DNA of 28,813 nucleotides. Origin: a virus. This document shows positions 18,116 through 26,146 of the stretch, piece after piece. The notes below the pieces were generated by a model that was not told where the DNA came from, made no database searches, and saw only the letters and a list, made by a program, of their open reading frames with translations. A program made the position numbers and the translations under genes. The first letter of the stretch is position 1. Each line of letters begins with the position of its first letter. The DNA is taken from IMG/VR virus record IMGVR_UViG_3300028666_000092, positions 1 to 28,813 of that record, one strand, 5' to 3'.

Positions 18116-18769
18116 CTACTTGCTTCGTTTATACATTTGAAAAAGAGATTTTTTCAATCTTTTTTGAGCATTCACCCCTACCGGCTCTAGAACCTTCTCG
18201 TATTTTACTATAACGGCCCAAGCCTGCTCTTCTGTCATAGAAGCTATGGTATCTTCGTCCACTTCAATTTCTACAAAATGATCAGGATTCTTTGGTTTAC
18301 CATCAGTGGTATCGTAAACAGTATAAAATACTAAGGTAGCATCAGACAATTTATATATATGGCAATTTTTTATGATTGAAGAATTAAGTTCCAAACAATG
18401 ATGATGCATTTGTTCAAATATTACTGCGTCTTCAGTTTTTTGAGCAATATCGGTATTTAATTCTTTTCGTTGAATATTATTTTTAGAATCTTTTGGCTTA
18501 TATTTAAATGTAACCTGACGCCTGCCATTATCAAGACCAAAAGAGGGCTTTCTGTAACGTCCAAAAGTGCCCTCGGAATCCCACTGTGGATTGTGCTCAA
18601 ACCACCATTTTGGATAAGTAAAATAATAATCAGGCCCCTCAACGTATATGAAACTTTTATTGTCTGGAAGCTCTCCCACTATTTGTTTGAACATCGGAAG
18701 ATTTCTGTCTTCCACGCGATATTTTGTTTCAAATTCAACGTGTTCTAGACTTTTTATTTCATCGGCCAT
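18116..18769 (-). CDS. CYTH-domain (triphosphate tunnel metalloenzyme) protein
   Basis: 217 aa. The N-terminal strand 'HVEFETKYRVE' contains the ExExK signature of the CYTH superfamily (E12, E14, K16). Further tunnel-type residues follow: 'RRQVTFKYKPK' (basic), 'CHIYKLSDATLVFYTVYD' and 'HFVEIEVDED' with paired acids. CYTH enzymes (class IV adenylate cyclase, thiamine triphosphatase, inorganic triphosphatase) act on triphosphates inside a beta tunnel with Mg/Mn. Length is usual for a single-domain member. Its start overlaps the ClpP-like gene by 11 nt. The substrate is unknown: a nucleotide, RNA 5'-triphosphate or host signal molecule would all fit. Confidence 0.72.
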   Translation of the reverse strand: MADEIKSLEHVEFETKYRVEDRNLPMFKQIVGELPDNKSFIYVEGPDYYFTYPKWWFEHNPQWDSEGTFGRYRKPSFGLDNGRRQVTFKYKPKDSKNNIQRKELNTDIAQKTEDAVIFEQMHHHCLELNSSIIKNCHIYKLSDATLVFYTVYDTTDGKPKNPDHFVEIEVDEDTIASMTEEQAWAVIVKYEKVLEPVGVNAQKRLKKSLFQMYKRSK

Positions 18770-19403
18770 TCTTAGCCCCCACCTTACTTTGTTTATTTTT
18801 AGAAATTGGTTCTGGCAGCACGGCGTCCGCTAATCCAATGGCGATAGATTCTTTGGCAGTTAGAAATGTATCATGATCCAAAATTACTTTTAATTGTTCA
18901 AGTGTATAGGCTGGATGTTTCTCTTGAATTCTTTCAAGATATACCCTCTCCATCCATTGGTCAAGTTTTCCATATTCTTTAGATACTCTCTGAACGGTCT
19001 TGGCGTGCCCAGAAATTTCCATTGTGCCATAATGTATCATTTGCCTAGAATTAGGTGACATCAATCGAGTATGAGCGGCTTGTAAGATAACTGAGCCCAT
19101 GCTCATGGCATGTCCAAATACTTTTATAGTAACTTCGGAAGCGCAATGACGAATGGCATCATAAATAGCCATTCCGTGATATTCATCGCCGCCGACGTTG
19201 TTCATGATAACAGTAATTGGATCGTTAGAAGTGTTATCTAGAATAATAAGATTTTTTATGAAACGCTCTGCCATTAAGGCGTCGGTGCCACTTTCATTGT
19301 TATCGTCTGCAGTCTCAGAACCCATGTAAATAGTGCGCGTGGGAACGTAGAGTTTAAAATCATGAAATTTATCAATATCGTCGCGATTTAAACGCTTAGA
19401 CAT
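18759..19403 (-). CDS. ClpP-like (S14) serine protease
   Basis: 214 aa from ATG 19403, which overlaps the upstream stop by 8 nt (ATGTCTAA); the earlier in-frame start at 19427 lies inside that gene. The ClpP triad is complete: S101 in 'GHAMSMGS', H124 in 'QMIHYG' and D178 in 'LDHDTFLTAKE', aligned with S97, H122 and D171 of E. coli ClpP. 'NNVGGDEYHGMAIYDAI' forms the oxyanion/strand region. In many phages such proteases mature the prohead, but this one sits in the replication operon next to the CYTH and AAA genes and away from capsid genes. Alternative roles are host-protein turnover or regulated proteolysis with an ATPase partner. Confidence 0.85.
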   Translation of the reverse strand: MSKRLNRDDIDKFHDFKLYVPTRTIYMGSETADDNNESGTDALMAERFIKNLIILDNTSNDPITVIMNNVGGDEYHGMAIYDAIRHCASEVTIKVFGHAMSMGSVILQAAHTRLMSPNSRQMIHYGTMEISGHAKTVQRVSKEYGKLDQWMERVYLERIQEKHPAYTLEQLKVILDHDTFLTAKESIAIGLADAVLPEPISKNKQSKVGAKNGR

Positions 19404-19665
19404 TATCGTTTCCAATCGTAAAAACATTATCGATAGCTTGAGAAGAGTATGCCACTATCAACGTTTCGTCAGCAAAAAGGGTTAGGGCGATTAGAGCTTC
19501 ATCTAAAGTAGGATAGCGAGCTATTGTTTTATTGCCTACCTCTTTAAGGCTACAATCTGAAGAACTTCCGGATATAAGCGCAGCATGCTCCACAATATGG
19601 AATGGGTCATCCGAATAATGAACCACCTCTAGAGTATATTTTGGATGAGAAAAATTCTTTTCCAT
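19396..19665 (-). CDS. Hypothetical 89-aa protein
   Basis: ATG 19665 shares one base with the primase stop (TAATG), giving 89 aa. Starts upstream (19689) lie within the primase. Mixed alpha/beta, no motif, two cysteines (one in 'SSSDCSLKEVG'). 'YPTLDEALIALTLFADETLIVAY' suggests a small domain with an alpha helix packed on a strand. Its overlaps with the primase and protease genes support expression. Function not recognised. Confidence 0.68.
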   Translation of the reverse strand: MEKNFSHPKYTLEVVHYSDDPFHIVEHAALISGSSSDCSLKEVGNKTIARYPTLDEALIALTLFADETLIVAYSSQAIDNVFTIGNDNV

Positions 19666-23831: not shown

Positions 23832-24743
23832 TTATTCTAATTCCTTTAGAATCTTTCTAGCTATTTGAATTTCTTCTCTTAATATGCTTTTACTTTTATT
23901 ATTATCGATAAATCTTTTAATCATTTTGGCTTTATCGATATTTGATTTTTCATTAAATTCTTCTTGTCTTTTGGCCCAAATATCTTGGTCTTCAAGTGTA
24001 AACAATAATTCTTCCGGATTCATATTATGAATGGTATCACGCGGACTCATATTGGCGCCATCCAAATCTACTATGCTAAGAGTTTTATTGGGCAGCGGTA
24101 CGGCTATATAGTAATTATTTCCAAAAACGAAGGAAGAGTTGTCGAAAACTCCGGCCCTTTTCTTAATAGATTTATATATAGATGCATCAAGCTTCTTAAA
24201 ACCTAACCGTTCGTAATTTTTTATCAAATCTTCCAAACGTTTGGGCGGGAAATTTGGTCCATAACAATAAAAGAATCCTTCTACTGAAAATCCTTTTATA
24301 TTTTTAGCTTTTTGACGACAAATACGAATGAGGTCTTCCATTCGTTGTTTTAAAAATAATGTGAAATTGGCTTTATTTTTATCCAACAAATCATTCTTTT
24401 TGGGCATTTGAAATTGATGTTTAGTAAAAGTCTTAACAAACTCTTCATATTTCTTAGGCATTTTTTCCAATGAAAAAAGCCCTAAGAAATTCACCAAATG
24501 TACATTGGCAATATTAATTAAATCTTCTTTCTCTAATCCTATCAGAATTAGAAGTGGCCTATATGTAAAGAAAGATTTGCTGGCTAGATTTATGGCAATA
24601 CGTTGATATGGTTCCATATCTCTAACTGTCGGATTGAAATTAACTTTGCGAAAATATTGATGTCTTATATAGCATAGTTCAAATTCGTCTTTGCAACTAA
24701 TTTTCTTTTCACTTGCTTTTGGTCTATATATGCGCTTTCTCAT
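23832..24743 (-). CDS. Hypothetical protein with possible sigma-70 region 2-like segment
   Basis: 303 aa, start with AAGGA 4-5 nt upstream. Residues ~48-95 ('RIAINLASKSFF' and 'EKEDLINIANVHLVNFLGLF') resemble sigma region 2, where a helix is followed by [E/D]DL[I/V]..[A/G]N..L....F. The rest is basic and helical (K/R/N-rich), with 'KRLEDLIKNYERLGF' and a C-terminal charged helix. Phage sigma-like proteins diverge heavily, so this is a hypothesis. Other readings are a DNA-binding protein of unknown class. It is preceded by the long structured non-coding region, so its expression may be controlled by it. Confidence 0.5.
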   Translation of the reverse strand: MRKRIYRPKASEKKISCKDEFELCYIRHQYFRKVNFNPTVRDMEPYQRIAINLASKSFFTYRPLLILIGLEKEDLINIANVHLVNFLGLFSLEKMPKKYEEFVKTFTKHQFQMPKKNDLLDKNKANFTLFLKQRMEDLIRICRQKAKNIKGFSVEGFFYCYGPNFPPKRLEDLIKNYERLGFKKLDASIYKSIKKRAGVFDNSSFVFGNNYYIAVPLPNKTLSIVDLDGANMSPRDTIHNMNPEELLFTLEDQDIWAKRQEEFNEKSNIDKAKMIKRFIDNNKSKSILREEIQIARKILKELE

Positions 24744-24760
24744 GTAGTCCTTAAATTGAA

Positions 24761-25100
24761 TTTGGCGGGTCGGGCTTGCGGCCCAACTCTAGCTGGCAAT
24801 CGATCAGCCCCATACCCGAAATTTCTGTCGGCTCCTATGCATCGAAGCTCGGGTTGTTTAGTCTCTTTTTGCTAGTATCCCAACGGTTAGCGTGCAACCA
24901 CGCCGCCGCCAAAAATGAATTAATGGGCCGGGCTTGATACCGGCTGGGCTACGATAAGATTCATTAAGTGCCACTTCGCGTACAGATCGCTACTGAGCAC
25001 GCCCCGAAAATATACATCGTCCGTAACTCATGTTATTTTCTGCGTGTCCTTACGCCAGCCCTTCCTAGAATAGATATCTAGGCGCTAGCTCCACGCTGCC
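24761..25100 (-). ncRNA. Candidate structured non-coding RNA (about 340 nt)
   Basis: The only long gap (24744-25108) in the minus operon; it is GC-richer than its surroundings and has no good ORF. Paired segments (plus coordinates): 24761-24768/24906-24913 (8 bp, closing a branched domain); inside it 24769-24775/24781-24787, 24814-24819/24849-24854 with inner 24831-24835/24844-24848, and hairpin 24890-24894/24899-24903. Next to it are 24914-24920/24959-24965 with inner 24927-24931/24940-24944, then 24968-24971/24997-25000, 25022-25026/25050-25054, 25064-25069/25077-25082 and outer 25054-25059/25084-25089. Three stems have pairs that are G-U only on the minus strand and C-A mismatches on the plus, so the RNA should be read from the minus strand. 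No tRNA, tmRNA or RNase P consensus matches. Confidence 0.65.
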
Positions 25101-25108
25101 GTTAAATT

Positions 25109-26146
25109 TTAAAATAATTTCTTATACCAGGGCTTCTTGGCAGCTTCTTTCTCGGCTGCTTGCCTGGTATATTCTAATAATTCCTGTTTAGCTTCTTCTC
25201 GCCATTTCTCTCTAGCAGTAGCAGCTTCAGTACGAAGACGCTTAATTTCCGCCTGATCTTCCTGAGCCATCTTCTCTCGGAAATTGGACATATTCACATT
25301 ATGCAAGCGATCTTCACGTTCTTTAATTTCAGCCTTAATGCGTTCCAAGTACTCTGGAGTTAAATCTTCAACAGAAGAAGTCTCATAGGTCTCGTCTTTC
25401 TGTTTCAATTCATCAACAAACTTACTTAAGGTGAGATCGCAATATTCATCAACCCAATCGGCGATGAAATATAAGCGTTGGTCATCATAATTGAACTTAC
25501 CAAAAAGAATGGGGTCCTTTTCTCGAATCTTTTCCTTAGTGCTCTTTACCTTCTCATTGCTATAATCTAAAGAGAGGACGTAAAGTTCATCAAACAACCC
25601 TTTCGTTTGAACTTCCTTAACCTTCTTTTGAATCTTTGCTGGCAAGGCGCGTGGGAATTCTGCTAACTTATCGAATCGCACTGGATTATTATAACTTTTT
25701 TCATTCTCTGTAACCTGGTACCGAAACTTATCCACGTCCGCCTGATTCACATAAACATCGTAACCGCAAGCTGCTGCTTCAGATTCGCGAACCGCAACTA
25801 CAAGAAGTTTAGAAAAAGTTTCATAGGCCGCATTCTGTCCCACTTCTTTGGTACTATTCACCAACGCTTGCAGCTTTTGTAAGCGCACCTTAAGTTTCTT
25901 AACCTGAGTCTTCGTTAGCTTTGACTTAACATAGCTAAAGTAAAGCTTAGGCCCAATGCGCTTTCTTTTACTGGTTCCTTGCGTTTCACCCTGCAAAGCA
26001 AAGCTGTGTGGATTGGAATATTGATATACTAGACCAGTTCCATCCGTGATGATAGCCTGTTGGGATATTGCGGTACTACCACTGTGGAATCCACCAATTA
26101 CAAGATGGTCAGAATTGGCAGAAAGCGTTACATTGTTATAGCTCAT
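25109..26146 (-). CDS. Hypothetical 345-aa protein
   Basis: ATG 26146 with AAGGAG 6 nt upstream. The N-terminal ~60 residues are beta-like ('NVTLSANSDHLVIGG'), then a basic region 'SKRKRIGPK' and helices; the C-terminal ~90 residues are a long charged coiled coil ('REKMAQEDQAEIKRL' and onward) ending KKPWYKKLF. No catalytic motif recognised. It follows the recombinase by 2 nt and precedes the structured RNA. It could be a structural or DNA-associated protein made with the replication proteins. Unknown. Confidence 0.68.
   Translation of the reverse strand: MSYNNVTLSANSDHLVIGGFHSGSTAISQQAIITDGTGLVYQYSNPHSFALQGETQGTSKRKRIGPKLYFSYVKSKLTKTQVKKLKVRLQKLQALVNSTKEVGQNAAYETFSKLLVVAVRESEAAACGYDVYVNQADVDKFRYQVTENEKSYNNPVRFDKLAEFPRALPAKIQKKVKEVQTKGLFDELYVLSLDYSNEKVKSTKEKIREKDPILFGKFNYDDQRLYFIADWVDEYCDLTLSKFVDELKQKDETYETSSVEDLTPEYLERIKAEIKEREDRLHNVNMSNFREKMAQEDQAEIKRLRTEAATAREKWREEAKQELLEYTRQAAEKEAAKKPWYKKLF

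Follow-up and report, generated by a model that had tools for sequence, protein, structure and literature searches.

Two tandem, divergent copies of a predicted structured RNA in a phage replication operon belong to an undescribed family of phage RNAs

Background

The packaging RNA (pRNA) of phage phi29 is a small phage RNA in which the fold is conserved and the sequence is free. Unlike the pRNA, the family that we report here is multicopy and lies across replication, recombination and structural gene neighbourhoods. Members of the phage RNA class GOLLD are often longer than 800 nt and tRNAs are sometimes found inside GOLLD linkers (PMC12286853). The present family resembles GOLLD and ROOL in that it is a phage-encoded, structured RNA whose variable region may hold a tRNA and which is sometimes near tRNA genes, but its members are only 136-243 nt long, its core is a different one, and a genome may carry several dissimilar copies. 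The arrangement of the closing stem and of the hairpin that stacks directly on its 3' strand is reminiscent of the acceptor and T-arm of tRNA (RF00005), although the family core is not a tRNA and a tRNA-like insert is present in a few copies only. Apart from tRNA, RAGATH-18, the reRNA of IS607 TnpB, was the sole Rfam family that touched any member, and at 13.9 bits (E 8.1, with a cut-off of 44.9) we regard this as chance. The family core, unlike RAGATH-18, is closed by a stem, P1, and has no guide end, and no nuclease of the TnpB, IscB or IsrB type was found among 30 neighbours scanned or, by Pfam domain, among the neighbours in the window.

Results and discussion

The non-coding gap and its neighbours

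The window, which is the whole stretch of 28,813 nucleotides that was analysed, is a 28.8 kb fragment from IMG/VR. Inside a phage replication operon it has a gap at 24744-25108 between the minus-strand genes of the P2 protein and the P1 protein (the latter not to be confused with stem P1; Table 1). An earlier note on this DNA had described here a long non-coding stretch with a candidate for a large, highly structured minus-strand RNA of no recognised family, possibly a new class or a leader controlling the gene that follows. The gap is without a long ORF, as the note had said, and its GC content is about 51% against 30-45% in the surroundings. An Infernal search against Rfam returned nothing for the region even at E ≤ 10, which agrees with the absence of a recognised family. 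The fold drawn in the note, one closed domain followed by four further stem-loops, has to be replaced: the gap holds two tandem closed domains of 191 and 156 nt, copies A and B, rather than one large RNA. The 8-bp closing stem of the note is exact and is P1 of copy B (Table 1).

Table 1. Positions in the window of the two RNA copies, their stems and the flanking genes
Feature	Positions	Strand	Remarks
Upstream gene, P1 protein (not stem P1)	25109..26146	-	345 aa, PHROG 10081
Copy A (5' copy)	24917..25107	-	191 nt; R2 match
Copy A stem P1, 5' strand UUAACGG	25099..25105	-	CM alignment; one C-A mismatch
Copy A P2a, 5' strand GCGUG	25092..25096	-	family-conserved
Copy A P2a, 3' strand CACGC (after AAGGA)	25042..25046	-	family-conserved
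Copy A P3 hairpin GCCGG-UAUCAAGC-CCGGC	24927..24944	-	stacked on P1
Copy A stem P1, 3' strand CCAUUAA	24920..24926	-	CM alignment
Copy B (3' copy)	24759..24914	-	156 nt; R2 match
Copy B stem P1, 5' strand UUUGGCGG	24906..24913	-	inverted repeat I3; CM alignment
Copy B P2a hairpin GCGUG-GUUG-CACGC	24890..24903	-	first arm reduced to tetraloop
Copy B P3 hairpin GUUGGGC-CGCAA-GCCCGAC	24769..24787	-	stacked on P1
Copy B stem P1, 3' strand CCGCCAAA	24761..24768	-	inverted repeat I3; CM alignment
Downstream gene, P2 protein	23832..24743	-	303 aa; 17-member family aligned

The note had proposed comparing the fold energy with shuffled controls. For the entire region this gave z -0.97 on the minus strand and -0.39 on the plus strand; taken by copy, the values were z -2.56 for copy B alone (24761-24917) and z -0.90 for copy A. 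Since the whole-region value is not significant against shuffles we did not count it as evidence, and fold energy by itself would have missed the RNA (z -1.0).

The P2 protein starts 15 nt past copy B, and its gene is kept between those of UvsX and a DnaB-like helicase in the phage group to which the window belongs. It had been suspected, by eye, of being a sigma factor, and this was dropped: neither Pfam nor PDB sequence searches placed P2 in a recognisable family or fold and Foldseek gave no significant support. The PHROG label of the P1 protein is transposase, which looks unreliable because Pfam and NCBIfam find nothing in its favour; its AlphaFold model has a pLDDT of 70. The P1 protein and short ORFs located before the RNA in two other loci (L034:2435-2677 and L137:7047-7334) have similar C-terminal tails, PWYKKLF, PWYKDFFKLLRFW and PWYTKLLNFFKKL, respectively, and the remainder of these proteins is dissimilar. 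A Clp-protease-like gene is present at 18759-19427 within the replication gene cluster of the window, and Myxococcus phage Mx1, the sole cultured relative found, has one in the same place.

Identification of the family

A single-sequence search with P2 gave two relatives in IMG/VR, and one of them, L034, has two tandem domains at the same place as those of the window. By blastn and nhmmer, the first copy of L034/L130 is 76% identical over 160 nt to window 24759-24914. An alignment of UvsX from the window, L034 and L035 led to 25 loci, 20 of which are close relatives with the gene order UvsX-P2-helicase, and in many of these P2 is preceded by a GC-rich stretch full of stop codons. By eye, the stretches share a common core, GCGUGG...CUGGRGACACGC, and a hairpin that abuts the closing stem. 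When the pattern CGTGGAN{42,72}CACTGGRGACACG was run over IMG/VR it returned 36 contig stretches, of which about 30 are clear members whose contexts are unrelated. A further 23 contig stretches (L268-L290), missed by the first pattern, came from a second one, GCTGTGG...CCACTGGAGACACG, which did not require P1 or P3. Other routes gave little: the homologues of the upstream P1 protein and the pattern TTGGGATACT...CTAAACAA led to no RNA apart from that of L034, which was also the only real match of the pattern TTTGGYRGCG...GACCYRCCAAA.

Two alignments were made, A4 with 25 canonical members and A6 with 49 copies, and the sequence of the window was left out of both. The covariance models R1 and R2 were built from A4 and A6, respectively, so that neither was trained on the window; R2 was built with one P3 pair absent from its structure. 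Among the 23 stretches found with the second pattern, 21 (all but L271 and L279) scored 55-100 bits with R2, with P1 and P3 in place. On 594 kb of other phage loci the best R2 score was 9.4 bits (E 2.5).

Fold and covariation of the family

Three elements make up the core of the family: the closing stem P1, which has 7 bp and covaries, an arm base that is nearly invariant, and a hairpin (P3, loop GUMGCG) that is stacked on P1. The arm base reads GCGUGG-AAAGC-UGUGG / CCAC-UGGAGA-CACGC and is formed by P2a and P2b with a purine-rich internal loop between them; besides this constant core, each member has two hypervariable arms. Unguided RNAalifold on A4 returned P1 (7 bp), P2a (5 bp), P2b (4 bp plus one) and P3. 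In this alignment the P1 pairs have up to five pair types, with compensatory changes in up to 13 of the 25 members; no shuffled control attains these values, and when the partner is shifted by 1-3 columns the share of paired cells falls from 94% to 28-46%. With the larger alignment A6, compensatory changes are found in 21 of 22 pairs, including four of the five P2a pairs. Here 95.0% of the cells are paired against 75.9% after shuffling (0/500 shuffles) and 29-48% in the slid controls, and the covariation score is 0.558 against 0.185 (0/500).

P1 and P3 were outside the search pattern, so that the way in which members were found does not bear on their covariation, with the exception that the 25 seed members, unlike those found later, were chosen partly for a recognisable P3 and P1. 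The invariance of P2a, on the other hand, is partly due to ascertainment because its sequence was in the search pattern; the divergent members that were found later covary at P2a as well.

On these sequence comparisons, covariation among the homologues, which the earlier note had named as a check, establishes a structured RNA class and its strand. The rival reading that the gap is a GC-rich spacer which folds like any sequence of its composition could draw on the whole-region z of only -0.97, but it is refuted by the covariation, and also by the hits of models from which the window was held out and by the tandem homologues; we consider its likelihood negligible.

The two copies in the window

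With R2 at E ≤ 10, copies A and B were the sole matches in the window and both were on the minus strand, the strand that the note had favoured. Copy B scored 32.3 bits (E 1.9e-8 in the window and 2e-7 in 310 kb) and copy A 19.9 bits (E 9.1e-5 and 9.8e-4, respectively); the R1 scores were 25.8 bits for copy B and 15.1 bits for copy A. Each copy has its own closing stem, and in the R2 alignment P1 with P3 stacked on its 3' strand is present in both. The P2a base GCGUGG...CACGC is present as well, as GCGUGGA...GGACACGC in copy A and as GCGUGGUUGCACGC in copy B, where the arm is reduced. The canonical internal loop GAAAGCU/UGGAGA is absent in copy B, and in copy A its 3' side reads AAGGA. Neither copy has the canonical P3 loop GUMGCG, its place being taken by UAUCAAGC in A and CGCAA in B. 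The loop of copy A recurs in L253; this copy belongs to phage G014, which has P1 and P2 genes closely related to those of the window. The second copy of L034 has a similar loop. Since the canonical internal loop and the GUMGCG loop are missing, the copies are divergent and not canonical members. Thus, the minus strand of window 24759-25107 encodes, as predicted from the models, two divergent representatives, in tandem, of a hitherto undescribed family of phage RNAs.

The family has no match among the 4227 families of Rfam 15, and its core motif was found in no paper of the open literature that we searched; an earlier description outside that scope is possible. Judged against these two sources the class is new, in keeping with what the note had held possible. 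ARAGORN and RF00005 matched neither window copy as tRNA or tmRNA; nor did ARAGORN call a tRNA elsewhere in the window or in the few copies that have a tRNA-like insert. A Twister-like hairpin in copy A, GCCGGUAUCAAGCCCGG, was considered and has no Rfam support.

Variation of the arms

In pairwise comparisons the core is on average 79% identical, P1 42% and the arms 30%, and the arms of copies within one phage are no more alike (27%) than those of different phages (30%). The arms are slightly more stable than shuffled sequence (mean z about -0.8). Four members from different phages and contexts (L220:1501-1725, L136:7060-7242, L252:2398-2640 and L267:2126-2322) have a near-invariant second arm, CAGAGAGAAGACAAUACUCGG...GAGGGUAAUCG...UUGAACCUCAGUA. 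Among them is a tandem pair that is orthologous between two phages, and from these two observations we conclude that paralogous subfamilies exist. The near-invariant arm could be an aptamer or an effector site.

By a strict definition, 4 of 55 copies contain a T-arm-like insert, where 0.11 would be expected. The second copy of L034 (L130) has a nested tRNA-like element at 2883-2949 which at 42.6 bits is above the Rfam cut-off; its anticodon arm is irregular and ARAGORN makes no call. In three phages, predicted tRNA genes were also seen within about 50-340 nt of copies (L252:1981-2059, L256:1975-2044 and L253:1863-1935), tRNA-Met twice and tRNA-Ile once. In L253 (reverse strand of 1840-2420) a second long GC-rich stretch lies 3' of the copy and before the tRNA gene, and it may hold more structured RNA.

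The tRNA-like inserts bear on whether these RNAs could be small relatives, in kind, of GOLLD and ROOL, that is, self-assembling structural RNAs that sometimes carry tRNAs in a variable linker. Phage origin, a variable region able to hold a tRNA-like element and the vicinity of some copies to tRNA genes would fit, but the family is far smaller, most copies have neither a tRNA nor a tRNA neighbour, and no Rfam match to GOLLD or ROOL was obtained in 22 relative loci. We therefore think such a kinship improbable.

Distribution, gene context and promoters

Altogether 69 distinct copies were collected from about 50 IMG/VR phage records. Over 49 whole records, R1 found copies in 35, at most three in each and often in tandem about 10-20 nt apart. 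A query with the core against cultured phages and plasmids (50,697 phage and 72,556 plasmid records) gave nothing real by blastn, which has limited sensitivity for such short matches, and neither R1 nor R2 found a copy in phage Mx1. The neighbouring genes have many functions and include those for helicase, UvsX, Cas4-like exonuclease, GroEL, ParB, integrase, terminase and portal proteins. By mechanical ORF calls the upstream gene is on the strand of the RNA in 51 of 61 copies, and 16 of 63 copies have their downstream gene on the other strand. Operonic copies often begin 2-15 nt past a stop codon and finish 11-20 nt before the next start. The family is independent of context, and its copies are often arranged in tandem.

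Of 54 copies, 14 have a sigma-70-like promoter (at least 9 of 12 matches) whose end lies 2-12 nt before P1. Among random positions taken from the same loci the rate is 3.8%, an imperfect control as these are partly coding. L222 has a perfect TTGACA-15-TATAAT. The window copies score 6 and 8 of 12, and most operonic copies likewise lack an evident dedicated promoter. In many copies, P1 is followed by a U-run or a Shine-Dalgarno sequence.

These data speak against the suggestion that the RNA is a leader of the following gene, if it is meant for the family as a whole. A cis-acting leader in the 5' UTR of P2 would act on the transcription or the translation of that gene, either as a riboswitch or through autoregulation. 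In the window and in about ten relatives the RNA does immediately precede P2, and the distance from the end of the copy to the start codon is mostly 6-16 nt. Elsewhere, however, unrelated genes adjoin the copies, and several P2 relatives (G009/G010, G015, G022 and G029) have no copy before P2 but have copies elsewhere in the genome. Instead of the one consistent, co-oriented downstream gene family by which a leader or riboswitch would be recognised, diverse neighbours were found, and in a quarter of the copies the downstream gene is on the opposite strand. Because of the varied neighbours, the opposite-strand genes, some strong promoters and the copies at other loci, a leader is unlikely as the general role. 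The reading fits the P2 locus, where the RNA is kept in many relatives, and not the family; the downstream gene is co-directional in about three quarters of the copies and therefore a regulatory role is possible at some loci, including that of P2.

The compact conserved core, the tandem copies and their position directly after stop codons in tight operons would also suit a putative self-cleaving ribozyme or an element for RNA processing by which operon transcripts would be separated. Against this, no Rfam ribozyme family was matched and there are stand-alone copies with promoters of their own, and we rate it a poor candidate, below the leader.

Proposed role

The reading that we favour, and hold to be moderately probable, is that of a free-standing, trans-acting phage non-coding RNA with a constant core and arms that give specificity. 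Its putative transcript would come from its own sigma-70 promoter or be cut out of an operon transcript, and P1 would join its 5' end to its 3' end. Together, the P3 loop and the invariant internal loop may build one tertiary fold, a putative site for a common partner, for which a host or phage protein or the ribosome are candidates. The arms, unrelated even among copies of the same phage, would direct each copy to a target of its own, or they would escape from something by which they are targeted. We offer this last step, in which the arms stand for specificity or escape, tentatively, as it is the least secure one.

Escape is also at the centre of another reading, in which the RNA is a structured decoy or counter-defence RNA and its arms diversify to escape or mislead an RNA-targeting defence of the host. 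The random-like divergence of the arms beside a constant core and the tRNA-like arms of a few copies would be compatible with it; it would be a special case of the trans-acting RNA, and in this specific form it seems improbable.

Conclusions

If the favoured reading of a trans-acting RNA holds, a constant core with unrelated arms in one genome predicts one shared partner and different targets. These phages may then carry multicopy RNAs with a receptor-like core and exchangeable arms, several per phage and of different specificity, whose targets in trans would be components of the host or of defence. For this possibility we claim no great confidence. To our knowledge such a modular RNA toolkit is known from no phage. 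A covariance model rebuilt from the members reported here would allow anyone to find and test these RNAs, and a covariation-supported class that occurs in about 50 uncultured phage records and is absent from Rfam 15 would represent an unstudied phage function.
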